Shown here: positions 2 through 38,319 of the stretch, one piece after another
Layout of the letters: every line of letters starts with the position of its first letter
Numbering within the stretch: the first letter of the stretch is position 1
NCBI RefSeq assembly: GCF_003173615.1
Contig: NZ_QGNA01000003.1
Span: 682,001 to 746,000 of the forward strand
Direction: 5' to 3'
Origin: Falsiroseomonas bella
GTDB taxonomy: Bacteria; Pseudomonadota; Alphaproteobacteria; Acetobacterales; Acetobacteraceae
Length of the DNA: 64,000 nt
Position numbers and translations under genes: made by a program
The notes under the pieces: model-generated
Seen by the model: the letters and a program-made list of their open reading frames with translations, nothing else
Told to the model about the DNA's origin: nothing
Database searches by the model: none

Positions 2-619
2 CCGGTCGCGATCGCCTGCGTCACCTCCGCGCTATTCGACTACCTGCCGCCGCTGGTCCGCGCGCTGCAGGCGGCGCGCCCGGACGCGGCGGTCTCGGTG
101 CGGGAGCTCGACACGACCGATGCGGTGGAGGCGCTGCGGCGCGGCGAGGTCGACCTCGCCTTGCTGCGGCTGGATCGTGACCGCCCGCCGGTGAAGCTGC
201 GCGCCCTCGGCCGCGACGTGCTGGCGGCCGCACTGCCGAGCGGCCATCCGCTGGCCGAGAGCAGCGCGCCGCTGCCGCTCGGCCAGCTTGCCGACGAGCC
301 GATGCTGGTGCTGCCCCGCGGCATCAGCCCCGCCTATTCGGATGCGATGGTCACCGCTTGCCGCGAGGCCGGCTTCACGCCGCGCGTCGTGCGGGAGGTG
401 GGCAGCGCGATGGCGCAGCTCGGCTTCGTCGCAGCCGGGCTCGGCATCGCGCTGGTCAGCGCGGGCATGGCGCGGCTGCGCCCGCCGGGCGTGGCGTTCC
501 GCGAGCTGGAAGGACCGATCCATGCTGTGGGCGTGGCGCTGGCCTGGAATGCCGAGCGCGAGAGCGAGGCGACGCGCCTGGCGCTCGATTTCGCGGAGAT
601 GCTCTTTCCGGGCGGGTGA
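2..619 (+). CDS. LysR-family transcriptional regulator, C-terminal part (cut by window edge)
   Basis: Only the last 205 codons are present; the gene starts before the window, so the DNA-binding helix-turn-helix is not visible. The frame is open from base 2 and reads as the effector-binding domain of LysR regulators: a VDLALLRL strand about 50 residues in, and the segment LGIALVSAGMARL about two thirds through, typical of the second lobe. Proteins of this type bind a small metabolite and control a neighbouring, often divergent, gene. Its target cannot be told here. The next gene is co-directional after 64 bases. Family assignment is firm; specificity is unknown. Confidence 0.85.
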   Translation, partial: PVAIACVTSALFDYLPPLVRALQAARPDAAVSVRELDTTDAVEALRRGEVDLALLRLDRDRPPVKLRALGRDVLAAALPSGHPLAESSAPLPLGQLADEPMLVLPRGISPAYSDAMVTACREAGFTPRVVREVGSAMAQLGFVAAGLGIALVSAGMARLRPPGVAFRELEGPIHAVGVALAWNAERESEATRLALDFAEMLFPGG

Positions 620-683: not shown

Positions 684-3600
684 GTGAGCGTGCGCGACCC
701 GCTCTGGTCCGTGCTGAACGCGACCAGTCTGCGCCTCAGCCTCGCCTGGCAGAGCCAGGACGGCGTGATCGCCTTGCAGCCCGACACCGAGATCGGGATC
801 GGCGACCGTTCCGCGCTGCTGTTCCAGGCGATCGACGCCACCGAGACGCGCGACATCCTCGGCGTCGATCTGACGGCGGGCAATCTCTACTATTTCTGGG
901 TCGCGGCGGCGTGGCAGCCGGTCATCGAGATCTTCGACGCCGAGGGCTACCGCCTCCTCTCGCTCGACGGCGACGACATCGGCTTCCCGGACCTCGTCGG
1001 CGAGGACTCGATCCTGTTCTTCGCGCCCGAGGTCAGCGGGCGCCATCACCTGCGCATCGGCTTCGTCGATCCGGCCCGGAAGGGCGACTACGTGGTCGAG
1101 GCCTGGGAGGATGTCGGCGCCAACTTCGTCAATGACCTCGAACCGGTGGTCAGCCAGGTCTCGATCGAGGCGACGGATGCGGTGAAGCGGGAAGGCGCGG
1201 CCGGCACCGCCACCACCTTCACCTTCACCCTCCGCCGCACCGGCGACCTCTCCACCCAGCAGGATGTGCTGTGGTTCGCCGCCGCCGCAGGGACCAGCCC
1301 GGCCGCGCGCTCCGACTTCGTGGACCCGGATTCGCTCGCCGAGCGCGTCACCTTCGCGCCGGGCGAGAGCGTGAAGACCATCGCGATCCAGGTCGCCGGC
1401 GACGACCTCGTCGAGGCGGACGAGACCTTCGAGGTCCGGCTCGCCTTCCCTTCCGCGGGGCTCGGCGTCGGCCAGGGCGTGGCGGTTGGCCGCATCCTCA
1501 CCGACGAGATGGCGATCGCCTTCTCTCCGGCGAGCCTCGCGATCGCGGAGGGCCAGTCCGGCGCCACACCCGTGACGGTGACCGTGACGCGCAGCGGCGA
1601 CCTTGCCGCCTGGAGCGGCTTCTGGACCGTGGAGGGTCATGGCGACCGCCCGGTGGACGCCGCGGATTTCGTGGGCGGTTCGCTGCCGCTCGGCGTCCTC
1701 TCCTTCGCGGCGGGGCAGGTCACGGCGGAGATCAGCTTCTCCATCCAGGGCGACCTGACGCCGGAATTCGACGAGGGCTTCCTGCTGCGCGTGGCCGAGC
1801 CTCCGTCCGGAACAGCCTTCGGTCGCACCGAGCGCCGCGTCTTCACCACCACCGGCACCGTGCTCGACGACGACAGCCGGATCGGCATCACGCGCATCAG
1901 CCCCTCGACCCCGGAGGGCACCGGCGAGGGCTGGCTGCAGGCCTTCTTCGTTCATCGCGTCGCGCCGGCGGGCTCGACGCACAGCGTGGCTTGGCGGGTG
2001 GAGGGCCTCGGCAGCACGCCGGCGACGGGCGCCGATTTCGCGGGCGGCGTGCTGCCCTCCGGCATCCTGACCTTCGCGCCGGGCGAGACGGTGAAGACCA
2101 TCGAGTTCCGCCTGGCCGGCGACAGCCTCGTGGAGCCGCTCGAGGAATTCCTGGTCCGCCTCAGCGATCCCTCGCCCGGCATCACGCTCGATGCCGCCTC
2201 GGTGGCTGCCGCGATCCTGGACGATGACGGCGCGGTGCGGGTGGAGGCGCTGGCCGACCAGATGGAGGAAGGCTCCGGCCCGGCGAGCGCGCTGCGCTTC
2301 CGGGTCAGCCGCACCGACACCGCGGACACCCAGACGGTGGATTGGGCGATCCTCGGCGGCGGCGCCAACCCGGTGGACGATGCCGATTTCGTGGGCGGCG
2401 TGCTGCCGTCCGGACGGATCACCTTCGCGCCCGGAGAGGCGGTGCGGCTGGTCTCGGTCCTGCTCGCCGGCGATTCCGTGCTGGAGGCGGCCGAGACGGC
2501 CCAGATCGCGCTTTCCGCCCCCTTCGGCGGCGTGCGCTTCGCGACGACCACGGCGGAGACGACGATCCTCGACGACGACGCCGAGGTGCTGTTCGGCCGC
2601 GACGGCATCGCAGGAAACGAGGGCGATGCCGGAACCACGGGCATCCTCGTCCGCCTCGAACGTCATGGGCATCTGGACCGGGAGGTCGCGATCCCTTGGA
2701 CGGTGACGCCGGCCGGGCCGAACGGGCAGCGCGCGGAGGCGAACGACTTCGCGGGCGGTGTGCTGCCCTCCGGCACGGCGCTTTTCGCGCCCGGCGCGAC
2801 GAGCACGAGCTTCACGATCCCCGTCGCCGGCGACACGCTGCCGGAGGCAACGGAATGGTTCAACGTCACGCTCGGCCGGGTGCACGGCATCGTGCTGCCC
2901 GAGCGCGCGCAGACCGGCTTGATCTACAATGACGAGCCCCGCATCGCGATGGCCTACAGTCCGACCCATGTGCGGGAGGGCGACGGGGGCACCACCGCCA
3001 TCGACTTCGTCATCCGGCGCAGCGACGATCTCTCCGGAACCGACAGCGTCGGCTGGCGCGTGACCAGCGGCGTGTCCGGCGTGGAGGCGAAGGCCTCGGC
3101 GCGGGATTTTGCCGGCGGCGTCTTCCCCTCCGGCCAGGTCACCTTCGCGCCGGGCGAAGCCGAGAAGGTCGTGACCGTCCGGGTTGTCGGCGACCGGCTT
3201 GTGGAGCCGGACCTGGAGTATTTCGCCTTCGAGCTCCACACGCCCTCCGCCGGCGTCTCGCTCGGCCTCGCCCAGGCCAGCGGGGCGATCATCAACGACG
3301 ATGCGCTGGTGACCGTGACCCCTGCCCAGCCGCGCATCGCCGAGGGCACGGGCCTGGCGACGCCGATCAGCTTCACCGCGACGCGCAGCGGCGACATCTC
3401 CGTCGCGCATTCGCTCGCCTGGTCGGTGCGGCCCGCCGGCACAAGCCCGGTGGACGCGCAGGATTTCGTCGGCCGCGCCCTGCCATCCGGCCGCCTCGAC
3501 TTCGCCCCTGGCGAGACGGTGCGGACCATCGCCTTCAGTGTCGTCGGCGACCGGCTCTTCGAGACCGACGAGACCTTCGCGCTGCGGCTGACGCCAACCT

Positions 3601-4388
3601 CCCCGGGATTGAGCGTCGCCGCCGCGACTCTGCAGGGCACGATCCTCAACGACGACACGCGGGTCTCCGTCGCGATCGATGCGGCCGTGCAGGCCGAGGG
3701 GCAGCCTGGCGGCACAACGCCCTTCACCTTCACCCTGACGCGCAGCGGCCCGCTCGACCTGGCGCAGAGCGTCGGCTGGTCCGTGGCGCCGACGGGGACC
3801 AGCCGCGCGGTCGCCAGCGACTTCCTGGGCGGAGTCCTGCCCTCCGGCACGGTCGCCTTCGCGGCCGGCGAGGCTGAGAAGACTGTCACGCTGCGCGTGC
3901 TGGGCGATGCGCTGATCGAGCCGGACGAATCCTTCGTGCTGCGCCTGCACAGCCCGACGGAGAGCCTGCAACTCGGCACCGCGACCGCCACGGCCACCAT
4001 CCGCAACGACGACGCCTCCATCACCGCGGCCATCGCCGCGCCGGCGCTGCCGGAAGGCGGGCCGGGCGCCGGCGCGGTCTTCACGGTGGCGCTGACCCGC
4101 AGCGGCGATCTGTCGGTCACCCATGACCTCGCCTGGTCGGTCGCGCCGACCGGCGCCGCCCGCGCGACCCAGCGGGACTTTGCCGGCAACGTCCTGCCCG
4201 GCGGCAGCCTGAGTTTCGCTCCGGGCGTCACCACGCAGGACCTGACGATCGCCGTGCAGGGCGACCTGCTGCCCGAGCCCGAGGAGACCTTCGTGCTGCG
4301 TCTCTCCTCGCCCTCGGCCGGCGTCGCCGTCGCGACCCCGAGCCTGCTCGGCACCATCCTGAACGACGACGGGGTGTGGCCGGGCTGA
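684..4388 (+). CDS. Large Calx-beta repeat protein with N-terminal PPC-like domain
   Basis: This 1234-residue protein begins at GTG. Residues about 30-150 resemble the pre-peptidase C-terminal (PPC) beta domain often found beside calcium-binding modules in secreted proteins. The rest is nine tandem Calx-beta-like units of about 118 residues. Each unit carries an EG near its start, a DF(A/V)GG loop, the strand L(P)SG-x-(L/I/V)-x-FAPGE, a GD-x-L-x-E-x-(D/E)E calcium-type acidic turn and an (L/N)(D/N)DD linker. Calx-beta domains bind calcium and are common in adhesins and surface proteins. No Sec signal peptide and no C-terminal RTX nonapeptides are seen; a type I-secreted surface protein is possible but not shown. 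It ends 15 bases from the convergent phosphonopyruvate hydrolase-like gene. Confidence 0.85.
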   Translation: MSVRDPLWSVLNATSLRLSLAWQSQDGVIALQPDTEIGIGDRSALLFQAIDATETRDILGVDLTAGNLYYFWVAAAWQPVIEIFDAEGYRLLSLDGDDIGFPDLVGEDSILFFAPEVSGRHHLRIGFVDPARKGDYVVEAWEDVGANFVNDLEPVVSQVSIEATDAVKREGAAGTATTFTFTLRRTGDLSTQQDVLWFAAAAGTSPAARSDFVDPDSLAERVTFAPGESVKTIAIQVAGDDLVEADETFEVRLAFPSAGLGVGQGVAVGRILTDEMAIAFSPASLAIAEGQSGATPVTVTVTRSGDLAAWSGFWTVEGHGDRPVDAADFVGGSLPLGVLSFAAGQVTAEISFSIQGDLTPEFDEGFLLRVAEPPSGTAFGRTERRVFTTTGTVLDDDSRIGITRISPSTPEGTGEGWLQAFFVHRVAPAGSTHSVAWRVEGLGSTPATGADFAGGVLPSGILTFAPGETVKTIEFRLAGDSLVEPLEEFLVRLSDPSPGITLDAASVAAAILDDDGAVRVEALADQMEEGSGPASALRFRVSRTDTADTQTVDWAILGGGANPVDDADFVGGVLPSGRITFAPGEAVRLVSVLLAGDSVLEAAETAQIALSAPFGGVRFATTTAETTILDDDAEVLFGRDGIAGNEGDAGTTGILVRLERHGHLDREVAIPWTVTPAGPNGQRAEANDFAGGVLPSGTALFAPGATSTSFTIPVAGDTLPEATEWFNVTLGRVHGIVLPERAQTGLIYNDEPRIAMAYSPTHVREGDGGTTAIDFVIRRSDDLSGTDSVGWRVTSGVSGVEAKASARDFAGGVFPSGQVTFAPGEAEKVVTVRVVGDRLVEPDLEYFAFELHTPSAGVSLGLAQASGAIINDDALVTVTPAQPRIAEGTGLATPISFTATRSGDISVAHSLAWSVRPAGTSPVDAQDFVGRALPSGRLDFAPGETVRTIAFSVVGDRLFETDETFALRLTPTSPGLSVAAATLQGTILNDDTRVSVAIDAAVQAEGQPGGTTPFTFTLTRSGPLDLAQSVGWSVAPTGTSRAVASDFLGGVLPSGTVAFAAGEAEKTVTLRVLGDALIEPDESFVLRLHSPTESLQLGTATATATIRNDDASITAAIAAPALPEGGPGAGAVFTVALTRSGDLSVTHDLAWSVAPTGAARATQRDFAGNVLPGGSLSFAPGVTTQDLTIAVQGDLLPEPEETFVLRLSSPSAGVAVATPSLLGTILNDDGVWPG
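1152..4373 (+). repeat. Nine tandem Calx-beta coding units, about 355 bp each
   Basis: Boundaries read from the (D/N)DD linkers fall near 1510, 1875, 2227, 2580, 2934, 3300, 3654 and 4010, with the last unit ending near 4373. Units are diverged at the DNA level but keep the same order of motifs, so they are old duplications rather than recent identical copies. Units 7, 8 and 9 share the most similar cores (AWSVRP/GWSVAP/AWSVAP followed by TG(T/A)). Confidence 0.8.
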
Positions 4389-4403: not shown

Positions 4404-5267
4404 TCAGCGCAGGAAGCGCGCCTCGATCGCCCGCATCCGGTCGTCGCCCTGCAGGGCGAACACGTCGGCCACGCTGGCGATGCGTCCCTCCACACCCGCG
4501 ATGCCGCCTTCGGCCAGGATGCGGGCGAAGGTCTCGCGCATCGCGCCGACCGCGGCGCGGATGGCGTGGTTGCCGCAGATGATCAGCCCGACCTTGCCCA
4601 GCGCCGCCACCTCCGCGAAGGAGAGCTGCGGGTAGGAAGTCGGCACCAGCACCAGCGGCACGCGCCCCGTCCAGGCGCGGCAGAAGGCGAGGATCTCGTC
4701 GGGCGTCTTCTGCTTGGAATGGATCAGCACCGCATCCGCCCCGGCCTCGGCATAGGCCTCGCCGCGTCGCAGCGCCTCCGCCTGGCCGAGGCCGGCGATC
4801 AACGCCTCCGTCCGCGCGATCACCAGCGGGCCGTCCGGCACGCGCGCCGCTGCGATCTTGCCCTGGAACTCCTCGACGCGGACCAGCTCCTGCCGCCCGC
4901 CGGGGCGCAGGCTGGAATCCTTGGGGAAGGTCTTGTCCTCCATCACCACCGCCGCGACGCCGGCCGCGGCGTAGCGCGGCACGAGGTAGGCGACCGAGAC
5001 GGCGTTGCCGCCGCCGGTGTCGATGTCGGCCACCACCGGCGCATCCTGCACCTCGATCATGGCGCGCATCGCGGCCAGGTGCGTCTCCCAGGAGAGGATC
5101 GAGGCATCCGGCACCGCATGCGCGGCCGAGAGCTCGAAGCCGCTGCCCCAGATCGCGTCGAACCCCGCCTCGGCCGCCAGCTTCGCGGAGAGCGGGTTGT
5201 GCGCGGACATCGCGATGGCCGGGCGATCGGGCGTGAGGCGGGCGCGGAGGCGGGCGGCGGCGTTCAT
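4404..5267 (-). CDS. pphA: Phosphonopyruvate hydrolase-like enzyme of the PEP mutase/isocitrate lyase superfamily
   Basis: The 287-residue product matches the family of phosphonopyruvate hydrolase, which cleaves the C-P bond of 3-phosphonopyruvate to pyruvate and phosphate. Visible features are GSGFELSAAHAVPD (Asp54, the PEP-mutase nucleophile position), ADIDTGGGNAV (Asp81 and Asp83, Mg2+ site) and the gating loop EDKTFPKDSSL at 110-120. PEP mutases have Asn in this loop and the Variovorax hydrolase, as I recall it, has Thr; here the position is Ser118. The stretch GRQELVRVEEFQGKIAA also resembles the hydrolase. The ATG at 5267 is chosen because the fold begins just after it; a longer reading would add 19 unlikely residues. 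No other phosphonate gene lies nearby. PEP mutase or oxaloacetate hydrolase activity is less likely. Confidence 0.8.
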   Translation of the reverse strand: MNAAARLRARLTPDRPAIAMSAHNPLSAKLAAEAGFDAIWGSGFELSAAHAVPDASILSWETHLAAMRAMIEVQDAPVVADIDTGGGNAVSVAYLVPRYAAAGVAAVVMEDKTFPKDSSLRPGGRQELVRVEEFQGKIAAARVPDGPLVIARTEALIAGLGQAEALRRGEAYAEAGADAVLIHSKQKTPDEILAFCRAWTGRVPLVLVPTSYPQLSFAEVAALGKVGLIICGNHAIRAAVGAMRETFARILAEGGIAGVEGRIASVADVFALQGDDRMRAIEARFLR

Positions 5268-7481: not shown

Positions 7482-7775
7482 ATGGCTTCCGAACGCCCGC
7501 AGCACCAGCGCTGGATCAAGCGCCCTCCGCGCCCCTCACGCGGCGGGCCGGAACGTGCACCCGCGCGGCAGAAGCCGGGCATGACGCAGTTCGTCCTTGC
7601 GATGCTGGTGGGCATCGGCACCGGGCTGCTTGGCGCGATGCTCGGACCGTCTCTGGCACCGAACACGCCGGGGATGGGCGGGCTGTTTGCCGGCGTCGGC
7701 CTCGCCGGCGGCTTCATCGCGGTGTGGCGCAGCATCGGCGGCACGCGCCAGGACATCAGGGACCTGTTTCGATGA
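7482..7775 (+). CDS. Small membrane protein of unknown function
   Basis: The 97-residue product has a basic, proline-rich N-terminus (about residues 1-33), one hydrophobic segment from about 35 to 55 and a second from about 66 to 82, then a short charged tail. It resembles small inner-membrane proteins seen only in related bacteria, and I do not recognise a family. Its stop overlaps the start of the following carbamoylase gene (ATGA at 7772-7775), which supports translational coupling and makes it a real gene. Confidence 0.65.
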   Translation: MASERPQHQRWIKRPPRPSRGGPERAPARQKPGMTQFVLAMLVGIGTGLLGAMLGPSLAPNTPGMGGLFAGVGLAGGFIAVWRSIGGTRQDIRDLFR

Positions 7776-8719
7776 CCCGCAAGCTGATCCTCGCCGGCGC
7801 CCAGATGGGCCCGATCCAGCGCGCCGACAGCCGCGCCGCGACGCTCGCGCGCATGATCGCGCTGCTGGAGCAGGCGGCGGTGCAGGGCGCGAAGCTGGTG
7901 GTCTTCCCGGAACTCGCCTTCACCACCTTCTTTCCGCGATGGCCGATGGAGCGGAACGATCCGGAACTGCTCGGCAGCTTCGAGACGGCGATGCCGAACC
8001 CGCAGGTGCAGAAGCTGTTCGACCGCGCGCGCGAACTCGGCGTCGGCTTCTATGTCGGCTATGCCGAGCTCACCCCCGACGGGCACCGCTTCAACAGTGC
8101 GATCACGGTCGGGCCGGACGGCGCGATCCTGTTCAAGTACCGCAAGGTCCACCTGCCCGGCAGCGACCATGTGAAGGCGGGCCAGAAGTACCAGCAGCTC
8201 GAGAAGATGTATTTCGAGTATGGCGACCTCGGCTTCCCCGTGGCGCGCGGGCCTGAGGCATGGGGCCGGCCGGTGCTCGGCATGCTGGTCTGCAACGACC
8301 GCCGCTGGCCGGAGGGCTGGCGCTGCCTCGGCCTGCAGGGCGTGGAGCTGGTGATGGTGGGCTACAACTCCGCCGCCTACGACCCGAATGGCGGCGAGAG
8401 CGAGAGCGCGGAGCTGCGCACCTTCCACTCCACGCTCGCGGCGCAGTCCAACGCCTACATGAACGCGACCTGGGCCTGCGCGGTCGCGAAGGCGGGCAAC
8501 GAGGACGGCGCGGGGCTGATCGGCGGGTCCTGCATCGTGGACCCGAACGGCGTGGTGGTGGCACAGGCAAATACGCTCGGCGACGAGCTGATCCTTGCCG
8601 AGGTGGATTTCGACGCCTGCCGGCAGGGCAAGGAAAAAATGTTCAACTTTGCCCAGCACCGCCGGCCGCAGCATTATCGGCGCATCGTGGAGCAGGTGGG
8701 CGCAACGCCGCCGGCGTGA
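7772..8719 (+). CDS. N-carbamoyl-D-amino-acid hydrolase (D-carbamoylase), nitrilase superfamily, copy 1
   Basis: The 315-residue enzyme carries the nitrilase triad in D-carbamoylase context: Glu47 in VVFPELAFTTFFPRW, Lys125 in YRKVHLPG and Cys174 in LVCNDRRWPE. The CNDRRWPE motif is characteristic of enzymes that hydrolyse N-carbamoyl-D-amino acids to the D-amino acid, CO2 and ammonia. Length is normal for the family (about 304-320). It overlaps the preceding small membrane gene by ATGA and would use the product of the upstream cyclic amidohydrolase. A second paralogue lies at 10537. Confidence 0.88.
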   Translation: MTRKLILAGAQMGPIQRADSRAATLARMIALLEQAAVQGAKLVVFPELAFTTFFPRWPMERNDPELLGSFETAMPNPQVQKLFDRARELGVGFYVGYAELTPDGHRFNSAITVGPDGAILFKYRKVHLPGSDHVKAGQKYQQLEKMYFEYGDLGFPVARGPEAWGRPVLGMLVCNDRRWPEGWRCLGLQGVELVMVGYNSAAYDPNGGESESAELRTFHSTLAAQSNAYMNATWACAVAKAGNEDGAGLIGGSCIVDPNGVVVAQANTLGDELILAEVDFDACRQGKEKMFNFAQHRRPQHYRRIVEQVGATPPA

Positions 8720-8728
8720 TCGCCCGCC

Positions 8729-9607
8729 TCAGGTAAAGGCCCAGCGCAGCGTCCGCGCGACGCCGAGCGTGCCGGCGCGCACCAGCGGGCGCGCCAGCAT
8801 GGGCGTGTCGAGCCCATGCATCCGCCGCGCCCAGTCGGGCAGCAGGTCCACACCGGCCTGCGCCGTCAGCGCCTCCACCGGCGTCGAGAGCGGATGGCCG
8901 CTGCGATGCGTCAGCAGCAGCCGGCAGATTTCGCGCGTGCGATCGTCCACCCGGAGGTCGCCCCGCGTCGCGTGCATCAGGCGTCGTGCCTCCAGCCGCG
9001 ACCGCGGCACCGGATCGGCGCCGAGCGCGGTGCCGATGGTGGCCATCTCGGCGAAATAGCGGTCCTGGTCCGCCGCCGGCATGCCCGGCTCGGCATAGCG
9101 GATCCAGCCGGCGAGGAAGCTCGTCGCCTCCGTCACATGCACCCAGGCGAGCAGCGCGGGATCGTTCGCCGCATAGGGCGTGCCATCGGGCAGGGTGCCG
9201 CGCACATGATCATGGATCCGGCGCACGCGAGTGATCGCCGCCTCGGCCTCCTCCCGCCCGGCATAGGTGGTCTGCGCGATGAAGCGCGCCGTCCGCCGCA
9301 GGCGGCCATGCATGTCGTGGCGGAAGCGCGAATGGTCCCAGACGCCCGCCAGCACGCCGGGATGCAGCATCTGCAGCAGCAGCGCCGCGACGCCCCCGAC
9401 CATCATCGCCGTGACGTCGCCATGCACCCGCCAGGCGACGGCGGCCGGGCCGAACAGGCCATCGGGCTGGCGCCGCACCGGCTGCTCGCCGCGGCTGCGG
9501 TCGTTGAACAGCGCGACGACCTGCCGCGCGATCGCGTCCTTCACCGCGCCGGCGGCGCCGGCGACGAGATCGGGTGCGGGACGGGCGACGCGCTTCGGAT
9601 ACGGCAT
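8729..9607 (-). CDS. MpaB-type oxygenase domain protein (DUF2236)
   Basis: The 292-residue protein matches the DUF2236/MpaB-like oxygenase family. This family is a heme-related helical fold that includes latex-clearing proteins and the fungal MpaB. Typical segments are the GLFGPAAVAWRVHGD helix, LLLQMLHPGVLAGVWDHS(R)FR around residues 76-97 and VTEATSFLAGW about residue 158. Its stop lies 9 bases from the convergent D-carbamoylase stop. It lies downstream, on the same strand, of the outer-membrane protein gene (69-base gap). The reaction is unknown. Confidence 0.75.
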   Translation of the reverse strand: MPYPKRVARPAPDLVAGAAGAVKDAIARQVVALFNDRSRGEQPVRRQPDGLFGPAAVAWRVHGDVTAMMVGGVAALLLQMLHPGVLAGVWDHSRFRHDMHGRLRRTARFIAQTTYAGREEAEAAITRVRRIHDHVRGTLPDGTPYAANDPALLAWVHVTEATSFLAGWIRYAEPGMPAADQDRYFAEMATIGTALGADPVPRSRLEARRLMHATRGDLRVDDRTREICRLLLTHRSGHPLSTPVEALTAQAGVDLLPDWARRMHGLDTPMLARPLVRAGTLGVARTLRWAFT

Positions 9608-9639
9608 GGCCAGTCACATCTCGTGTGCCGGCGGCGTCG

Positions 9640-9666
9640 GGCAAGCCGTCGCCGGCGGGGCTTGCC
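9640..9666 (-). terminator. Possible stem-loop between outer-membrane gene and MpaB-like gene
   Basis: The arms GGCAAGC (9640-9646) and GCTTGCC (9660-9666) enclose a GC-rich loop that can itself pair (GCCGGCG with CGCCGGC nearby). It lies directly downstream of the outer-membrane protein gene on the minus strand. No U-run is present, so its role as a terminator is tentative. Confidence 0.35.
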
Positions 9667-9676
9667 GCGGCCCGGC

Positions 9677-10426
9677 TCAGAACCGCCGACGATACCCGAG
9701 CTGCAGGACGTTCGACCCCTCCCACACGCCGTTGAACAGCCCGAACATGCCGCTGCGGTGCGCATAGCGCAGCACCAGCTCGTCCTGCGGACGGTGCGGC
9801 AGGCCGACGGCGATCTCCGGCGAGAAGTAGTGCAGGAACCTGGAGGTGTGCGGCTCGGGGTATTGCGGCGTGCCGGTCTCCACTTCCGGCAGGGTGTTCA
9901 GCCAGTTGATGCCGGTGGAGAGGCCGAAGCTGGTGTAGAGCCGGTCGCGCCAGGGAAAGCCGTCGTAGCGGAGATAGAAGGCGTACCAGGCTTCGGGCGA
10001 GTTGGTCTGCCCGGAGCGGTAGCCGGCACCCAGCTCGAAATCCACGGCGAAGTCCGTCCAGACGCGCAGAAGGCGGCGGCTGTAGGAAGCGCCGTAGAAG
10101 GTGTCGCCGCCCCAATCGTAGTTCCAGGGCTGGATGGCGATCTGGCGCAGATAGCCGTCCTCGGCCACCGAGCCGATCCAGACGGTGAGGCCGTTGCGCA
10201 GGCTGTCCCGCGCGATGCGGGCATCCCCCGCCGGCAGGCCGCCCCACCAGTTCGGCACGGTGGCGGCCAAGGGTGCCGGCGAGGCCGGGGCCGGCTGTGC
10301 GCCGGCCGGCGGCGCGGCGGCCGCCAGGGCAAGCGCGCAGGCAATCGGGCGCACCGCCAGGGACAGAAGCTGCAAGGCGATGCATCCCGTTTCGAGGGGT
10401 GATCGCGTACCCACCGACCGGCGCAT
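9677..10426 (-). CDS. Outer-membrane beta-barrel protein, possibly PagL-type lipid A deacylase
   Basis: The product has an N-terminal hydrophobic signal segment ending near PPAGAQ, then alternating aromatic/polar strands, and ends in a C-terminal Phe (LQLGYRRRF) as outer-membrane barrels do. Near the C-terminus is RYAHRSGMFGLFNGVWEG. This resembles the PagL active site, where a His-x-Ser pair is followed about 13-14 residues later by Glu, and here His, Ser and Glu occur in that order. PagL removes the 3-O-acyl chain of lipid A. The barrel call is good; the enzymatic call is tentative. The exact start is uncertain: ATG 10426 is used, but TTG 10375 or GTG 10354 would place the signal peptide nearer the N-terminus. 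Confidence 0.6.
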   Translation of the reverse strand: MRRSVGTRSPLETGCIALQLLSLAVRPIACALALAAAAPPAGAQPAPASPAPLAATVPNWWGGLPAGDARIARDSLRNGLTVWIGSVAEDGYLRQIAIQPWNYDWGGDTFYGASYSRRLLRVWTDFAVDFELGAGYRSGQTNSPEAWYAFYLRYDGFPWRDRLYTSFGLSTGINWLNTLPEVETGTPQYPEPHTSRFLHYFSPEIAVGLPHRPQDELVLRYAHRSGMFGLFNGVWEGSNVLQLGYRRRF

Positions 10427-10536
10427 CGGCAAGCCTGTGCACGGACGGAACCTTGTCCGGTTCGGGCGGATCCGCCCCGCTTGACCCGCCCCGCCACGGC
10501 CTGGATCGTCGCCGCCTTGCCGCCAGGAGCAACCGC

Positions 10537-11496
10537 ATGTCCCGCCGCCTCGTCGTCGCCGCCGCCCAGATGGGCCCGATCCAGAAGGCCGAGGGGCGCG
10601 AGGTGGCGGTCGCGCGCATGGTCGCGCTGATGGAGAAGGCGGCGCGGCGCGGCGCGGAGGTGGTGGTCTTTCCCGAACTGGCGCTGACCACCTTCTTCCC
10701 CCGCTGGTACCACGAGGACCTGGCCGAGGCCGATCATTGGTACGAGCACGCCATGCCGTCCAACGCCACGGCGCCGCTCTTCGACGCGGCGAAGCGGCTC
10801 AACCTCGGCTTCCACCTGGGCTACGCCGAGAAGACGCCGGACGGGCATCGCTACAACACCGCGATCTACGTCCATCCCTCGGGCGGCATCGCGCTGAAAT
10901 ACCGCAAGGTCCACCTGCCCGGTCACGCGGAGTACGACCCCGTGCGCAAGGTGCAGCACCTGGAGAAGCGCTATTTCGAGCCGGGCGACCTCGGCTTCCC
11001 CGTGGTGCGCGCGCCGGTCGGCGGCGCGGGGCCGGTGAACATCGGCATGATGATCTGCAACGACCGCCGCTGGCCGGAAGCCTGGCGCGTGCTCGGCCTG
11101 CAGCAGGTGGAACTGGTCATGCTCGGCTACAACACGCCCAGCCTGAACATGGAGAACCGTGGCTTCGAGGCGCATCACCTGCGCGTCGCCCACAGCCATC
11201 TCTCGATCCAGGCCGGGTGCTACCAGAATGCCTGCTTCGGCGTCGGCGTGGCCAAGGCCGGCACGGAGGACGGGCACGAGCTGTTCGGCCATTCCATCAT
11301 CGTGAACCCGCAGGGCGAGATCATGGCCCAGGCGACGAGCTGGGAGGACGAGGTCATCACGGCCGATTGCGACCTCGGCATGTGCGAGCTCGGGCGCACC
11401 ACCATCTTCAACTTCGCCCGGCATCGCCGGCCCGAGCACTACACCCGCATCACCAGCCAGATCGGCAGCGAATCGCCGCCGGTCTGGAACCCGTGA
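10537..11496 (+). CDS. N-carbamoyl-D-amino-acid hydrolase-like enzyme, nitrilase superfamily, copy 2
   Basis: This 319-residue paralogue of the enzyme at 7772 keeps Glu47 (VVFPELALTTFFPRW), Lys124 (YRKVHLPG) and Cys174 (MICNDRRWPE). It differs in the substrate-facing loop after GYN: copy 1 has SAAYDPNGGESE and copy 2 has TPSLNMENRGFE. The C-termini also differ. The start follows CCAGGAGCAACCGC. It is divergent from the outer-membrane gene across about 110 bases and so has its own promoter. A different side-chain preference from copy 1 is likely but not proven. Confidence 0.86.
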   Translation: MSRRLVVAAAQMGPIQKAEGREVAVARMVALMEKAARRGAEVVVFPELALTTFFPRWYHEDLAEADHWYEHAMPSNATAPLFDAAKRLNLGFHLGYAEKTPDGHRYNTAIYVHPSGGIALKYRKVHLPGHAEYDPVRKVQHLEKRYFEPGDLGFPVVRAPVGGAGPVNIGMMICNDRRWPEAWRVLGLQQVELVMLGYNTPSLNMENRGFEAHHLRVAHSHLSIQAGCYQNACFGVGVAKAGTEDGHELFGHSIIVNPQGEIMAQATSWEDEVITADCDLGMCELGRTTIFNFARHRRPEHYTRITSQIGSESPPVWNP

Positions 11497-32667: not shown

Positions 32668-33282
32668 ATGCCGCACGAACTCCGCCTGCCCGCCTTCCTG
32701 TTGGGCTTCGCACTCGGAGGCTTCTTCGACGGGATCCTGTTCCACCAGATCCTGCAATGGCACCACCTGCTCTCGCTCTGGGCGCCGGAGGAGGGAATGC
32801 CCTTCCATGTGGTCTGGGATGGGCTGTTCCATGCGGCGCACTACGCCGTTGCCGTATTTGGCCTCGGGCTGCTCTGGCAGCATCGCGAAGGGATCGCGGC
32901 ACCGCGCGCCGGCCGCGGCCTGGTCGCCTGGGCGTGGATCGGCTTCGGCGCGTGGCACATCCTGGATGTGGTGCTGAACCACTGGGTGCTCGGCATGCAC
33001 CGCGCGCGCATCGGCGTGGCGAACCCGCTCGCGTACGACATGATCTTCGTGGCGCTCGGCGTGGTCGGCCTGATGCTGGGATGGCTGCTGCTGCGCCGGC
33101 CGGGCAGCGGAGCGCGAGGCGCGCCGGTCGCGACCGGGCTTGCGATCCTGCTGTTCGCAACCGCGCCAGTGGCCGCGCTGCCGCCGCGCGACCCGGATCC
33201 GGCCATCGCCTCCCTGCTCGGCGGCAGGCTGCTGCCCGCGTTCTGCGCGAGCTGGGCGCGGGTGGACTACGCCGCCAGGTAG
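32668..33282 (+). CDS. DUF2243 membrane protein
   Basis: The 204-residue protein begins with the DUF2243 hallmark LGGFFDGILFHQILQWHHLLS and contains histidine-rich turns (VVWDGLFHAAHYA, WHILDVVLNHWVLGMHR). It has about five membrane segments and a short C-terminal domain. The family is often called a predicted membrane protein linked to metal or heme functions, but its role is unproven. The 3' end overlaps by 16 bases the convergent amidohydrolase gene. Confidence 0.82.
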   Translation: MPHELRLPAFLLGFALGGFFDGILFHQILQWHHLLSLWAPEEGMPFHVVWDGLFHAAHYAVAVFGLGLLWQHREGIAAPRAGRGLVAWAWIGFGAWHILDVVLNHWVLGMHRARIGVANPLAYDMIFVALGVVGLMLGWLLLRRPGSGARGAPVATGLAILLFATAPVAALPPRDPDPAIASLLGGRLLPAFCASWARVDYAAR

Positions 33283-34460
33283 CGCGCCGCGCCTTCGGCA
33301 AGAACCCGCACGCAGAGCGCCAGGTCCTCCTCCTTCGTGTCCTCGGCCCAATGGTGGCTGATGCCGTTGATGGAGGGCGTGAACAGCATCGCAGCCGGCA
33401 TCACCCGCGCGATGTATTGCGCATCGTGCCCGGCGCCTGAGGGCATGCGCTGCCAGGCGCCAGGTGCCAACGCCTCCGCCGCGTCGGCCAGCGCCTGCTG
33501 CAGCGCCTGGTCGCAGAGCGCGGGGGTGGAGAGGCTGACCGGCTCCAGCACGCAGGGGCATTTCTCGCGGCGGTTGCTCTCCTGCACCAGCGCATGCAGG
33601 CGCTCCTCCATGCGGGCGATGATCGCGGTGTCCACGTCGCGTAGCTGGAACAGCACCTCGCAGCGGCCGGGGATGATGCTGGCTGCGCCAGGATCGAGGC
33701 TGATGCGCCCCGTCGTCCAGGTGCTGCGCGGCCCGCAGACCAGCGGGAATTGCCGGTCGATCTCTGCCAGCAGGCGGATCGCGGAAAGGCCCGCGTCGCG
33801 CCGCTCCGCCATCGTCGTGCCGCCGGCATGGTCCTGCATGCCGGTGAAGACCAGCTTCCACTGCCGGATCGCGACGATGCCGGTGACGACGCCGACGCGC
33901 AGGCCCGCGCTTTCGAGCTGGGTTCCCTGCTCGATATGCATCTCGAGGAAGCCCCTGTAGCGACCTTCCGCGCAGCGCATGCGCGGGCGGCCTTCCAGCC
34001 CGGCTTCCTTCAACGCCTCCCGCAGGGGCTTGCCATGGTAGCGGTTGGCGAGGCGGTCGATCTCGGCGTCTTCGAGTTGCCCGATGAAGCTGCGGCTGCC
34101 GATGAAGCCGCCATAATGGCCTTCCTCGTCGGCGAAGGCGATGACATCCACCGGCAGGCCCGCGCGGGCGAGCGCAAGACCCGAGACGACCCCGAGAGCG
34201 CCATCCAGCCAGCCGGCATGGTTCTGCGTCTCGATATGGCTGCCGACGAGCAGATGCGGCCCGGCGCCCTTGTGGCGGCCGATGACGTTGCCGATGCCGT
34301 CCATCTCCGGCTCCAGGCCGCATTCCGTCATGCGGTCCATCAGCCAGCGGCGGCTTTCCATGTCCTCCTTCGTGTAGGTCGGGCGGTGCACGCCGGTCTT
34401 GTAGGTGCCGATCTTCCGAAGATCGTGCAGGTCGGCGAGGAAGCGGGCGGTGTCCACCAT
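33267..34460 (-). CDS. M20-family amidohydrolase (N-carbamoyl-L-amino-acid hydrolase/allantoate amidohydrolase-like)
   Basis: The 397-residue enzyme shows the M20 ureidase ligands: VGSHIETQNHAGWLDGALGV (His and Asp), AFADEEGHYGGFIGS (Glu) and EMHIEQGTQLESAG. QDHAGGTTM and a C-terminal ISHHWAEDT (His) complete the set. The first metal loop reads HIETQNHAGWLDG rather than the usual HxDTQPxGGRxDG, which may mark a different substrate. The start overlaps the SDR stop (TGATG at 34460). It is the last of four genes that form a tight minus-strand operon. Confidence 0.85.
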   Translation of the reverse strand: MVDTARFLADLHDLRKIGTYKTGVHRPTYTKEDMESRRWLMDRMTECGLEPEMDGIGNVIGRHKGAGPHLLVGSHIETQNHAGWLDGALGVVSGLALARAGLPVDVIAFADEEGHYGGFIGSRSFIGQLEDAEIDRLANRYHGKPLREALKEAGLEGRPRMRCAEGRYRGFLEMHIEQGTQLESAGLRVGVVTGIVAIRQWKLVFTGMQDHAGGTTMAERRDAGLSAIRLLAEIDRQFPLVCGPRSTWTTGRISLDPGAASIIPGRCEVLFQLRDVDTAIIARMEERLHALVQESNRREKCPCVLEPVSLSTPALCDQALQQALADAAEALAPGAWQRMPSGAGHDAQYIARVMPAAMLFTPSINGISHHWAEDTKEEDLALCVRVLAEGAARYLAA

Positions 34461-35227
34461 CACGTCGTCAGCCCGCCATCCACCACGACGGTCTGGCCCG
34501 TCACCATCGCAGCACCCGCCAGCAGGAACACCACGACCTCGGCGATGTCCTCCGGCGTACAGCGGCGCTTGAGCAAAGCGTTCTCGATGGAGTTCGCGCG
34601 CTGCTCGTTGGTCCATTCGATCATCCAGGTGGAATCCACGGCCCCCGGCGCGACCGCGTTCACCCGCACCTCCGGCGACAGGCCGCGCGCCAGGTTCTTG
34701 GTCAGGCTGATCACGCCCGCCTTGGTCGCGCCATAGGCCATGGACGACCCCGCATGGTTGATCCCGGCGATGGAGGCGATGGACACGATCGCGCCATGCG
34801 CCTTCTTCAGCGCCGGCGCCGCCGCCTTGCTGCAGCGGAACACGCCGAGGAGGTTCACCTCCAGCAGCGTGTGCCAGACCTCCTCCGTCAGCCTTTCCAG
34901 CTCATGCGGCGCGATGGTTGTGCGCGTGGCGGGCGTGCCGGCGTTGTTCACCAGATAGTCGAGCCGCCCGAGATCGGCGACCGCGCGCTCCACCATGCCC
35001 GCGCAATCCGCCGCGTCGCCGACATTGCCGGGCGCGGAGACGACCTTGGCGCCCGTCATCGCATGCAGCTTCGCCACCGCCTCCGGCCCGCGCGGATCGT
35101 CGGCCAGGTGGTTGATCGCAACGGCCGCCCCGCCGCGCGCCAGCATCGTCGCCGTTGCGAAGCCGATACCGGAGGCGCCGCCGGTGACGAGCGCGGCCTT
35201 GCCCTTGAGGTCGTAGGTGATGCTCAT
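34460..35227 (-). CDS. Short-chain dehydrogenase/reductase
   Basis: The 255-residue protein has TGGASGIG near residue 15 (dinucleotide loop), LVNNAG, SIASIAG and YGATKAG (Tyr-x3-Lys). It ends in GQTVVVDGG, all classical SDR features. Four bases separate it from the upstream hydroxyacyl-CoA dehydrogenase-like gene, and its stop overlaps the start of the M20 amidohydrolase. It probably oxidises or reduces an intermediate of the same unknown pathway. Confidence 0.87.
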   Translation of the reverse strand: MSITYDLKGKAALVTGGASGIGFATATMLARGGAAVAINHLADDPRGPEAVAKLHAMTGAKVVSAPGNVGDAADCAGMVERAVADLGRLDYLVNNAGTPATRTTIAPHELERLTEEVWHTLLEVNLLGVFRCSKAAAPALKKAHGAIVSIASIAGINHAGSSMAYGATKAGVISLTKNLARGLSPEVRVNAVAPGAVDSTWMIEWTNEQRANSIENALLKRRCTPEDIAEVVVFLLAGAAMVTGQTVVVDGGLTT

Positions 35228-35231
35228 GGCC

Positions 35232-36197
35232 CTACTCCTGCACCCGCGTCGCGCCGGCCATGGTGCCGATCTCGCGCATCGCCTTCTTCAGCGCCACCAG
35301 CCGCCGGTCGCGCGCGGCCATCAGCTGCTGCGTGTCGGTCCCCCACTCGTAGTAGCCCGCGCCCGTCATCACGCCGGTGCGCCCTTCCTCGATCAGCCTG
35401 TCCAGCGTCTCGCTGTTGTTGCGCGGCGGTGGCGGCTGGTAGGTGGCGTTGCGCAGCGCGTGCTGCAGCAGCGGCAGGCCGGTGAAGTCCGCCTTCGCCA
35501 TCACCGCGACGACGGGGATGCGCAGCGCAAGGCCATGCACCACCGCGGTGTCGATGTCCTCCGGCGTGCAGACGCCTTCGTCCAGCAGGCGATACACCTC
35601 GGCCGCGATGGCGGACTGGATGCGGTTCGCGATGTAGCCGGGGACGAATTTCTGCATCACCAGCGGCACCTTGCCCATCGCCGCGACCAGGTCGCTCGCC
35701 CAGGCGATGATCGCGGGATCGGTCTTCGGCCCGCCGACGATGTCCACAAGGTCCACCAGGTAGGGCGGCGTGTACCAGTGCATGACGAGCGACCGCGCCT
35801 GCCGCCGTTCCGGGATCAGTGGGAAGGGATCGAGATAGGAGGTGTTGGAGGCGATCACCGCGTCCATCGGCGCCAGCCGGTCGAGCTCCGTGAACAGCAG
35901 GCGCTTCGTCTCGGGGTTCTCGATGATCGCCTCGACGATCAGGTCGGCGCCTTCCACCGTCTCGGCCAGCATCGGCAGGCGCGTGACCTGCGCATGCAGC
36001 CACTCGGCCGTGCATTCCGCCGGCGCCTCCCCATGCGCGACGAGCGAGGCCAGCGCCGTTTCCATCAGCCCGCCGGCCTTGTCGAGCATGCTCATGGAGC
36101 TGTCGGTCAGGCGCACCTCATGCCCGCCCAGCGCATAGACCAGCGCGAGGGCATGGCCCATCGTGCCGGCGCCGATCACTGCGACCTTGATCGCCAT
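35232..36197 (-). CDS. 3-hydroxyacyl-CoA dehydrogenase-family (lambda-crystallin/L-gulonate dehydrogenase-type) enzyme
   Basis: The 321-residue protein starts MAIKVAVIGAGTMGHALALVY (NAD loop). It contains EGADLIVEAIIENPETKRLLF and HWYTPPYLVDLVDIVGG around the catalytic His, plus KFVPGYIANRIQSAI, the 3-hydroxyacyl-CoA dehydrogenase C-terminal linker. The sequence lacks a crotonase partner, so it may act on a free beta-hydroxy acid such as a gulonate, as lambda-crystallin relatives do. It lies five bases from the ThDP enzyme gene. Confidence 0.82.
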   Translation of the reverse strand: MAIKVAVIGAGTMGHALALVYALGGHEVRLTDSSMSMLDKAGGLMETALASLVAHGEAPAECTAEWLHAQVTRLPMLAETVEGADLIVEAIIENPETKRLLFTELDRLAPMDAVIASNTSYLDPFPLIPERRQARSLVMHWYTPPYLVDLVDIVGGPKTDPAIIAWASDLVAAMGKVPLVMQKFVPGYIANRIQSAIAAEVYRLLDEGVCTPEDIDTAVVHGLALRIPVVAVMAKADFTGLPLLQHALRNATYQPPPPRNNSETLDRLIEEGRTGVMTGAGYYEWGTDTQQLMAARDRRLVALKKAMREIGTMAGATRVQE

Positions 36198-36202
36198 GGT
36201 CT

Positions 36203-37870
36203 TCACCCTCCCGGGATGCTGGCCTCGGGGGCCCGCGATTCGATATCCGTGCGCACATCCAGCACGGTGGTCTCGTTGCGCGCCAGCGCCGCACGCAGCG
36301 CGGGCGCGATGTCGCCAGGGCGCTCCACCGTGACGCCGTGCAGGCCGAAGCCGCGCGCGATGGCGGCGAAATCCGCGCTCTCGCCGAAACGCAGGATCTC
36401 GGCCGCCGCATCGCTGTCGTTGCCGGCGACACGGCGCACATTGGGCCAGCCCTGGCCGAAGCCGCGGTTGTTGTTCACCACGACGACGACGGCGAGCCCG
36501 AGGCGCCGCGCCGTCTCCAGCTCCGGCATGTGGTAGTGGAACGCGCCGTCGCCACAGTAGCAGACCACGGGCCGGTCCGGCGCGGCGCATTTCGCGCCGA
36601 GCGCGGCGGGAAAGGCCCAGCCGAGCGAACCGGCCGCGCGCAGATACGCCTGGCTCGTGATCTCCACCAGCGTGCCGGTCCAGATCCCGGAATAGCCGGT
36701 GTCGGCCACCAGGATCGCATCCTCCGGCAGCGCGCGCGACAGTTCGGCGCAGAGCCGCGCCGGGTCGATCGGCACCGCCTCGCTCGCCAGGCGCGGCGCG
36801 ATCTCCGCGCGCCACTCGGCCAGCTGCGCCTGCGCATCCTGCAGGAAGCCAGGGTCGCGCGGCGCATCCGGCAGGGCGGCGGCGAGCGCGGCCAGCGCCG
36901 CGCGCGGATCGGCCAGCACGGCCACATCTGCGGGATAGCTGCGGTCGAACTCGGACGGATCGGCGTCGATCTGCACGACGGGCGTGCCCGCCGGCGGCAC
37001 GCGCCAGCCATGCGTCACCTGGTCGCCGCTGTCGCAGCCGACCAGCAGCAGCAGGTCGGCGCCGGCGGCGATGCGGTTGGCCGGCGGCGCGGAATAGCTG
37101 CCGACAACGCCGGCATGCAGCGGATGCGTCGTCGGCACCAGGCCGCGCGCGCCGAGCGTCGTCAGGATCGGCGCGGCCAGCTTCCCGGCCACGGCCAGCA
37201 GCTCCGCCCCGCAAGCCGACAGCGCCGCGCCGTCGCCCGCGATGATGGCGACGCGCCGCGCGCGGGCGAGAACGGCGGCCGCCTGCTCGATCGCCTGCGG
37301 ATCGGGCGCCGGGCGGAAGCGCGGCGCGGTCAGCGCGCCGAGTTCGGCGGGCGGCGCCGCCACCTGCCCCTGCTCGATCACCTCCGCCTGCAGTCCGGCG
37401 AGATCGAGATGCACCGGCCGCGCCGGCACGCTGACCGCGGCCGCCCAGGCCTGGCGCAGACGCTGCGGCAGTTCGTCGGCCGCCGCGACCTCGGCGGCGA
37501 ATTTCGTCACCGCCTGGAACAGCGGCGCATGCGCCACTTCCTGATAGGCGTTGCGGTGCTGATGCGCCGCCACCTTGCGCCCGGTCATCGCGATCACCGG
37601 CGCGCGCGCCAGGAAGGCGTCCTGCAGCCCGGCGGCGAGGTTCGCGGCACCCACCGACTGCGCCGCCACAACGCCGGGCCGCCCGCTGACCCGCGCATAG
37701 GCATCGGCCATGTAGACCGCCGCCTTCTCGGTATGCGCGAGCACCGGCTTCACGCCGAGGCGCGACAGCGCCAGCAGCGTCGGCCGCAGCACCGCATCCA
37801 CGAAGAACACATGGGTCTGGCCGGAGGCGGCAAGGCTACGCGCCAGCCATTCGGCGCCTGTGATGCTCAT
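36203..37870 (-). CDS. Thiamine diphosphate-dependent enzyme, acetolactate synthase-like
   Basis: The 555-residue protein has the two-domain ThDP plan. HTEKAAVYMADAYARVSGRPGV near residue 46 carries the catalytic Glu of the PYR domain. CYCGDGAFHYHMPELETARRL followed by VVVVNNN near residue 445 is the cofactor-binding PP domain. It resembles acetolactate synthase large subunits and benzoylformate-type decarboxylases but lacks a linked regulatory subunit. It heads a four-gene operon, so it probably decarboxylates or carboligates a 2-keto acid of a catabolic route. The substrate is unknown. Confidence 0.83.
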   Translation of the reverse strand: MSITGAEWLARSLAASGQTHVFFVDAVLRPTLLALSRLGVKPVLAHTEKAAVYMADAYARVSGRPGVVAAQSVGAANLAAGLQDAFLARAPVIAMTGRKVAAHQHRNAYQEVAHAPLFQAVTKFAAEVAAADELPQRLRQAWAAAVSVPARPVHLDLAGLQAEVIEQGQVAAPPAELGALTAPRFRPAPDPQAIEQAAAVLARARRVAIIAGDGAALSACGAELLAVAGKLAAPILTTLGARGLVPTTHPLHAGVVGSYSAPPANRIAAGADLLLLVGCDSGDQVTHGWRVPPAGTPVVQIDADPSEFDRSYPADVAVLADPRAALAALAAALPDAPRDPGFLQDAQAQLAEWRAEIAPRLASEAVPIDPARLCAELSRALPEDAILVADTGYSGIWTGTLVEITSQAYLRAAGSLGWAFPAALGAKCAAPDRPVVCYCGDGAFHYHMPELETARRLGLAVVVVVNNNRGFGQGWPNVRRVAGNDSDAAAEILRFGESADFAAIARGFGLHGVTVERPGDIAPALRAALARNETTVLDVRTDIESRAPEASIPGG

Positions 37871-37980
37871 GAGGTCGTCCCGCTCCCCGCCGCGCTGTGC
37901 GCTCCGCGGCCTTGGGCGCAAACCTGCCGGCTGGTCTGCGCGGAGACAAGCCGGCGCGCGCGCAAACTATCCGGCGCGGT

Positions 37981-38319
37981 TCAGCTACCGCGGTAGGTCG
38001 CGTAGCTCCAGGGGGAGCACAGCAGGGGCACGTGGTAGTGCCCCTGCCCTGCCTCCAGCTTCACCGCGATCGGCACGACATCGAGGAAGCCCTCGCCGCC
38101 GAAATACGCGCCGACGTCGAAGCGCAGCTCGTAGCGCCCGGCGACGAAGCTTTCGGGCGTCAGCAGCGGCGCGTCGGTGCGGCCATCGGCATTGGTCAGC
38201 CGCTCCGTCACCTTCGCCGCGCCGCCAGGCTCGATGCGCCAGAGCTCCACCTTCACGCCAGCGGCAGGCCTGCCGGCCGCCGTGTCGAGCACATGCGTGG
38301 TGAGAGCCGACGCCTTCAT
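37981..38319 (-). CDS. uraH: 5-hydroxyisourate hydrolase
   Basis: The 112-residue transthyretin-like enzyme hydrolyses 5-hydroxyisourate to OHCU in urate breakdown. Catalytic residues are visible: His9 in LTTHVLD, Arg47 in NADGRTDAPL, a His-x-His at 94-96 (GHYHVPLL) and the C-terminal YRGS tetrapeptide, which distinguishes the hydrolase from transthyretin. It overlaps the urate hydroxylase gene by ATGA (38316-38319), so the two steps are co-expressed. Confidence 0.95.
   Translation of the reverse strand: MKASALTTHVLDTAAGRPAAGVKVELWRIEPGGAAKVTERLTNADGRTDAPLLTPESFVAGRYELRFDVGAYFGGEGFLDVVPIAVKLEAGQGHYHVPLLCSPWSYATYRGS

Follow-up and report, generated by a model that had tools for sequence, protein, structure and literature searches.

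One gene in a 64,000-nucleotide stretch of Falsiroseomonas bella DNA (the window, meaning the whole stretch analysed) is a real, intact and ordinary-looking member of the phosphonopyruvate hydrolase (PPH/PalA) family. Judging from the aligned residues, its product would most likely hydrolyse phosphonopyruvate in a metal-dependent reaction, with Ser118 doing the work of Thr118 in PphA, a reading that we hold with about even confidence. The enzyme family, which splits the C–P bond of phosphonopyruvate, is already known, and the window gene is a modest variant of it.

The minus-strand open reading frame (stop included) is intact and encodes 287 amino acids from an ATG, and a Pfam scan of the protein returned PEP_mutase as its sole domain. 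The closest solved sequence was the Variovorax phosphonopyruvate hydrolase 2dua (398.4 bits, E = 1.5e-118), followed by the PEP mutases 5unc (247.8 bits) and 1m1b (207.3 bits) and the related entry 1s2u (203.7 bits), whereas carboxyphosphonate mutase, methylisocitrate lyase, PA4872 (structure 3b8i, 74.9 bits) and oxaloacetate acetylhydrolase (3lye, 63.8 bits) each scored 82 bits or less. The PPH equivalog model TIGR02321 was passed with 422.8 bits against a curated cut-off of 374.4; the PEP mutase model TIGR02320 (259 against 319.55) and the prpB model TIGR02317 (117.5 against 354.4) were missed. An AlphaFold2 model of the protein (pLDDT 87.2) had 2dua as its top structural match (Z 34.4, 1.9 Å over 235 residues), with PEP mutases close behind (Z 31–33) and PrpB at Z of about 26–28. 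The sequence-only reading had called the protein PPH-like and quoted the motifs GSGFELSAAHAVPD and EDKTFPKDSSL; both are present, and sequence match, model score and tree placement bear out the assignment.

Features of the window that bear on the PPH-family gene, with the residues discussed in the text.
Feature	Positions	Strand	Basis
PPH/PalA-family enzyme, 287 aa	4404..5267	-	ORF, domain, sequence match, NCBIfam score, tree
Residues 110–120, EDKTFPKDSSL: Glu110, Lys116, start of gating loop	4908..4940	-	alignment with 2dua and PEP mutase
Ser118, codon TCC; equivalent to PphA Thr118, PEP mutase Asn122	4914..4916	-	alignment, codon positions
Arg152; equivalent to PphA Arg155, PEP mutase Arg159	4812..4814	-	alignment; role from an excerpt of PMC7916636
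His183; equivalent to PphA His186, PEP mutase His190	4719..4721	-	alignment; role from an excerpt of PMC7916636
Cys231, codon TGC; equivalent to PphA Tyr234, PEP mutase Trp237; second clade-diagnostic residue	4575..4577	-	alignment
Divergent ErtD/allantoinase-like amidohydrolase, 462 aa	5378..6766	+	NF058538 495 bits, below the cut-off of 600
LysR regulator, C-terminal part, start outside the window	98..619	+	context only; prpD and prpC lie beyond

Relatives came from a genome-contig scan. The 82 PPH-type rows compared here are the best 80 of 212 confirmed loci together with the window gene and locus L013, and more distant family members lie outside these counts (the best-80-of-212 set). By gating loop, they comprise 34 rows with Ser118, 41 with Thr in a KDTSL loop and 7 with a KVTSL loop. 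In the trees, every group formed one side of a branch (S118, 100/99; T118 with 2dua, 95/93; KVTSL, 99/97; PEP mutases, 96/84), and S118 and T118 were sister clades inside PPH. Removal of columns 118 and 234 left the same groups, with SH-aLRT values of 98 (S118) and 96 (T118). Methylisocitrate-lyase-like paralogues from the own genome were placed separately from the PPH groups; the tree, which had been proposed as a check, placed the gene with PPH and not with these paralogues or the PEP mutases, no solved oxaloacetate enzyme (PA4872, oxaloacetate acetylhydrolase) being among the sequences included. Among 299 genomes of the same taxonomic family, 21 had a match at E ≤ 1e-90, 17 of them Ser-type and 4 Thr-type by loop. 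The four Thr-type loci (L120–L123) have Tyr at position 234 and are not part of the Ser clade: L122 groups with the KVTSL rows (95), and the remaining three are placed next to that group with low support (43). The rows are not independent: L044 duplicates L013, and the majority of the 15 further Ser-type loci found in the family (L105–L119) apparently come from the same genomes as earlier loci. The window gene is under purifying selection (NG86 dN/dS of 0.05–0.20 in 11 pairs of Ser-type genes, 6 of which include it).

Aligned with 2dua, the protein has the first serine of KDSSL at PphA Thr118 and PEP mutase Asn122. The place of this residue at the mutase/hydrolase position was therefore read correctly from the letters; as a mark of this one gene it does not stand, because a single supported clade, made up mostly of Roseomonas-type Acetobacteraceae, has Ser118 in 34/34 rows (best-80-of-212 set). 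PphA position 234 is divided in the same way, with Cys in 34/34 Ser-type, Tyr in 41/41 KDTSL and Trp in 7/7 KVTSL rows (best-80-of-212 set). Between Ser-type and KDTSL rows of that set, positions 118 and 234 differ without exception, and 11 further columns have at least 90% agreement within each group. Both T118S and Y234C shrink the side chain and are fixed in the Ser clade. As judged by alignment, Ser118 and Cys231 are subfamily markers typical of Roseomonas-like Acetobacteraceae and not peculiar to the window gene. Cys231, which the sequence-only reading missed together with the own-genome phnJ and the prpD and prpC genes beyond the window edge, is the final residue of predicted strand 226–231, the last predicted barrel strand of the AlphaFold2 model. 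End points of the structural alignments put it near PrpB 235 and ICL 346–347, where ICL Thr347 is presumably a substrate contact; Cys231 may line the pocket.

The rest of the active site is conserved. The metal and catalytic phosphonyl ligands D54, D81, D83, E110, R155 and H186, whose roles in PPH are described in an excerpt of PMC7916636, are all present in the window protein, and the equivalents of these six together with K112, K116, S119 and L120 (PphA numbering) are invariant across the 34 Ser-type, 41 KDTSL and 7 KVTSL rows (best-80-of-212 set). At gating-loop position 118, Ser in place of Thr is a conservative change. PphA Arg188 is Lys in the window protein, in 35/41 KDTSL rows and in 33/34 Ser-type rows (best-80-of-212 set); in the same excerpt, Arg155 is said to contact the phosphonyl group, and Arg188 is named for substrate binding only, with a phosphonyl contact in the open form. 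According to that excerpt, most authors assign the mutase/hydrolase difference to Asn122Thr, which the review itself doubts. The motif EDKX5NS, given for PEP mutase in an excerpt of PMC12723261, is missing from the window enzyme, which reads EDKTFPKDSSL. Across the Ser-type rows, Ser118 is encoded by TCN in 11 and AGY in 23, and the tree implies 3 changes; such codon switching says little about selection for Ser118, because the invariant Ser119 also switches (4 changes). Our literature searches found neither an assay of a Ser-type member nor a published test of Ser at position 118.

From these residues we infer a reaction in which the substrate carboxylate and keto oxygen would chelate Mg or Co held by Asp81, Asp54, Asp83 and Glu110, Arg152 and His183 would hold the phosphonyl group, and the 114–121 loop would close. 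Breakage of the C–P bond would give pyruvate enolate, and water would take the phosphoryl group to yield pyruvate and phosphate. The hydroxyl of Ser118 would replace that of PphA Thr118, where mutases have Asn; since the ligands are kept and Ser can supply the hydroxyl that Thr does, hydrolysis of phosphonopyruvate should still be feasible. Where no close PalB is encoded, phosphonopyruvate might be formed from phosphonoalanine by a general aspartate-type aminotransferase or arrive from outside, with C–P lyase alongside.

No phosphonate genes were found in the window by tblastn with the own-genome proteins around phnJ plus one PalB, one pal permease and one PalR, a query set outside which PhnW, PhnX, PhnA, PhnZ, Ppd and other types of phosphonate transporter fall; the sole matches were generic ABC ATPases at 58–60 kb. 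The palB/palR/transporter cluster of Variovorax Pal2 is absent beside the gene, so that the claim that it stands alone holds for these queries, but as a peculiarity the claim fails: most of the family is likewise without palB, which lies near 10/82 family genes, all Thr-type (10/41 T, 0/34 S and 0/7 KVTSL by tblastn; best-80-of-212 set). The divergent amidohydrolase is separated from the PPH-family gene by 110 bases. Between the PPH-family gene and the LysR gene lies a 1,234-aa protein with seven Calx-beta stretches (684–4388, plus strand), for which no homologue was found in the other 81 loci (tblastn, E 1e-5; best-80-of-212 set); past both genes, just outside the window, are prpD and prpC (named via homologues). 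Two nitrilase-superfamily genes (7724–8719 and 10537–11493, plus strand), with N-carbamoylputrescine amidase as best NCBIfam model at 108 and 104 bits against a cut-off of 410, stand near the hydantoinase-like amidohydrolase, which suggests a group for cyclic-amide breakdown. Elsewhere, 33270–39503 holds a urate-breakdown-like group with a hydroxyisourate hydrolase (TIGR02962 over cut-off), a hydantoinase/carbamoylase-family amidase (TIGR01879 over cut-off) and, at 38319–39503, a gene that is PuuD-like by eye with no NCBIfam match. At 36206–37870 is a ThDP enzyme with an acetolactate-synthase-like score, under every cut-off shown.

Neighbours in the 82 loci (best-80-of-212 set) were counted by tblastn instead of gene calls because five of the loci had no PPH gene called; these five (L021, L024, L027, L047 and L058) are left out of the operon list. 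Homologues of palB, the pal permease and PalR were found in 0/34 Ser-type loci (tblastn; best-80-of-212 set), some of which are short contig ends where absences are weak, and a PalB match was likewise not found for the Thr-type family members L124, L125 and L127. The amidohydrolase homologue occurs in 14/34, prpD in 14/34 and prpC in 12/34 Ser-type loci, the own genome included for the prp genes (best-80-of-212 set). We do not take this neighbourhood to prove a function: links to the amidohydrolase and the prp genes are confined to one group of near relatives (14/34 Ser-type loci; best-80-of-212 set) and may therefore be plain shared synteny. Close same-strand partners of Ser-type genes elsewhere are a BKACE of the 3,5-dioxohexanoate type (L025, L034), CoA-transferases and a thiolase-like protein (L041), a NuoF-like protein and a molybdopterin oxidoreductase (L044), and the housekeeping genes gyrB (L049, L061, L076), valS (L045) and cmk (L035). 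In L128, an acetolactate-synthase-like ThDP gene (9290–10831, minus strand; NF005760, 747.7 bits over 363) lies directly upstream of and abuts the Ser-type gene (8421–9290, minus strand). Three Roseococcus/Rubritepida loci have a protein of 129–130 aa directly after the Ser-type gene (L025:8843-9229, L033:938-1327 and L041:7510-7899); the L033 copy, the one scanned, had no Pfam match. KVTSL genes, from Reyranella-type Rhodospirillales (L086, L089, L090, L092, L093, L094 and L096), stand between ATP12 and propionyl-CoA carboxylase genes, with 4-base gene overlaps in several (ATP12 7/7, pccB 7/7, pccA 6/7; best-80-of-212 set). In Achromobacter (by titles; for example L079 and L082), a DacC-like gene and a SulP sulfate permease flank the Thr-type gene, with no palB, an arrangement seen in 22/41 T loci (best-80-of-212 set).

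Whole-genome searches covered 26/34 Ser-type and 4/7 KVTSL loci and, for PalB, phnJ and PEP mutase, also 14/41 KDTSL loci. A PalB of at least 72% identity was found in 7/14 Thr-type genomes (one being that of the query itself), 0/26 Ser-type and 0/4 KVTSL genomes, with identity peaking at 57% among the 26 Ser-type genomes and at 54% in the own genome; Ser-type genomes including the own (0/27) differ from Thr-type genomes (7/14) at Fisher p = 0.00015, kinship ignored. A phosphonoalanine aminotransferase elsewhere in the genome, which the sequence-only reading had proposed to look for, did not emerge. The candidates, two tandem aminotransferases at C7:323–326 kb with 54% and 49% identity to a PalB, are read as aspartate aminotransferases because comparable matches (47–57%), one or more per genome, occur in all 26 Ser-type genomes. 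NCBIfam scores do not separate the two kinds: both candidates and the PalB query alike score best with the same aspartate transaminase model, below its cut-off (543, 517 and 521 against 617). The own genome carries the C–P lyase gene phnJ (C8:333856-334671, 482.8 bits) on the same contig, about 352 kb from the PPH-family gene, in a region that resembles a phn operon (L104; G000:C8:325001-344000). The gene phnJ was also found in 24/26 other Ser-type, 3/4 KVTSL and 7/14 T genomes. In the family sample of 299 genomes, where scoring stopped at 8 candidates per listed genome, so that a few absences may be misses, it was found in 15/17 Ser-type and 2/4 Thr-type genomes and in 144/278 without the gene (Ser-type versus gene-less, Fisher p = 0.004, kinship ignored). 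This association is nominally significant, yet confounded by kinship, because all five own-genus genomes in that sample without the gene have phnJ too.

Several results count against phosphonopyruvate as the substrate: the missing palB locus and orthologue, Arg188Lys (common to most KDTSL rows), T118S with Y234C, and tight partner genes in relatives that point to CoA or 2-oxo-acid chemistry. Since PalB is missing genome-wide in the Ser-type genomes searched, two linked positions have changed and such partners are present, there is room for another 2-oxo acid. The Ser118/Cys231 branch might keep the PPH scaffold and act on a 2-oxo acid that is bulkier or lacks phosphorus (branched, or resembling oxaloacetate), with C–C or C–P cleavage beside a pyruvate enolate; this is the main rival reading, which we consider less likely than not but far from negligible. 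It would fit a gating-loop residue and an end of the last predicted barrel strand (E226–231) that are both smaller and fixed in 34/34 rows (best-80-of-212 set), the operon-like BKACE, CoA-transferase, thiolase-like and ThDP partners, and the setting of the KVTSL group between ATP12 and propionyl-CoA carboxylase genes. However, the named metal ligands, Arg155 and His186 are all kept, and the Ser branch is a short one whose sister clade contains the palB-linked enzymes. No single pathway is indicated, because the partners vary by lineage and several are housekeeping genes. Superfamily C–C lyases have a loop Cys at this position and, because the ICL C191S mutant is inactive (excerpt of PMC7609661), a loop Ser in place of the ICL/MICL Cys gives a lyase reading no help. 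On the boldest form of this reading, which we likewise regard as less likely than not, the branch would be an unrecognised enzyme, classed as PPH by homology, whose wider pocket would let it act as a hydrolase or lyase of 2-oxo acids in CoA or 2-oxo-acid catabolism.

The prp genes nearby raise the idea that the PPH-family gene fills the PrpB (methylisocitrate lyase) step for prpD and prpC, which we consider very improbable. The proximity is real in a good part of the Ser-type loci, but the own genome has its own PrpB over the cut-off (C14, 411.6 bits; loop KKCGH, L003), so that nearby prpD and prpC do not make the gene a methylisocitrate lyase. PrpB was likewise over the cut-off in 24/30 Ser-type or KVTSL genomes (22/26 S, 2/4 KVTSL) and in 11/12 of the searched prpD-neighbour genomes. 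The window protein also has a low prpB score and no catalytic loop Cys, and in the own genome a LysR gene on the other strand separates its gene from prpD. The loci with a prpD link come from close relatives that have synteny in common. That the enzyme is a PEP mutase making phosphonopyruvate is scarcely credible: it belongs to the same superfamily and 5unc is its second-best sequence match, but Ser and not Asn occupies the mutase position, the TIGR02320 score is below cut-off, the protein lies outside the PEP mutase clade and the one ThDP enzyme noticed in the window scores as acetolactate-synthase-like. A PEP mutase over cut-off was found in 0/45 genomes, the own genome among them.

PPH is a rare C–P-cleaving enzyme, and the gene palA is taken as a marker of phosphonate breakdown. 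Should the Ser-type branch have another substrate, palA genome counts would be inflated and part of the genes counted would not be phosphonate genes; if, as we prefer, Ser-type enzymes hydrolyse phosphonopyruvate, the branch would put to a natural test the rule that one residue, Asn or Thr, separates mutase from hydrolase. Excerpts of PMC10574752 and PMC8154272 describe PPH as substrate-specific and Co-dependent, centre published palA work on a palR/palA–E cluster with a LysR regulator and report 50 palAB clusters in 19,425 complete genomes; a survey based on annotation and catalytic residues is credited with 201 genomes carrying palA (excerpts of PMC10574752 and PMC9381506). In contrast to that published cluster, the window gene encodes the enzyme without the cluster.

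Compared with known enzymes, the window protein shares with PEP mutases (Mytilus 1pym/1m1b, Streptomyces 5unc) the superfamily, the EDKxFPK stem and the metal ligands, but it is without the Asn122 motif, under the TIGR02320 cut-off and in a separate clade. With PrpB it has the superfamily fold in common, and prpD and prpC lie close to its gene, whereas Ser118 stands where PrpB has its catalytic loop Cys and the prpB score is far under the cut-off. The KVTSL group, of which both scanned members also pass TIGR02321 (402 and 399 bits), differs by its KVTSL loop with Thr118, by Trp at 234 and by the ATP12/propionyl-CoA carboxylase context. Relative to Variovorax sp. Pal2 PphA/PalA (2dua, 2hjp, 2hrw), the window enzyme has Ser for Thr118, Cys for Tyr234 and Lys for Arg188, is 3 residues shorter before PphA 148 and has no palB, palR or transporter neighbours that we found beside its gene; in fold, length, metal ligands, Arg155, His186, the KDxSLR loop and TIGR02321 membership, the two are alike.
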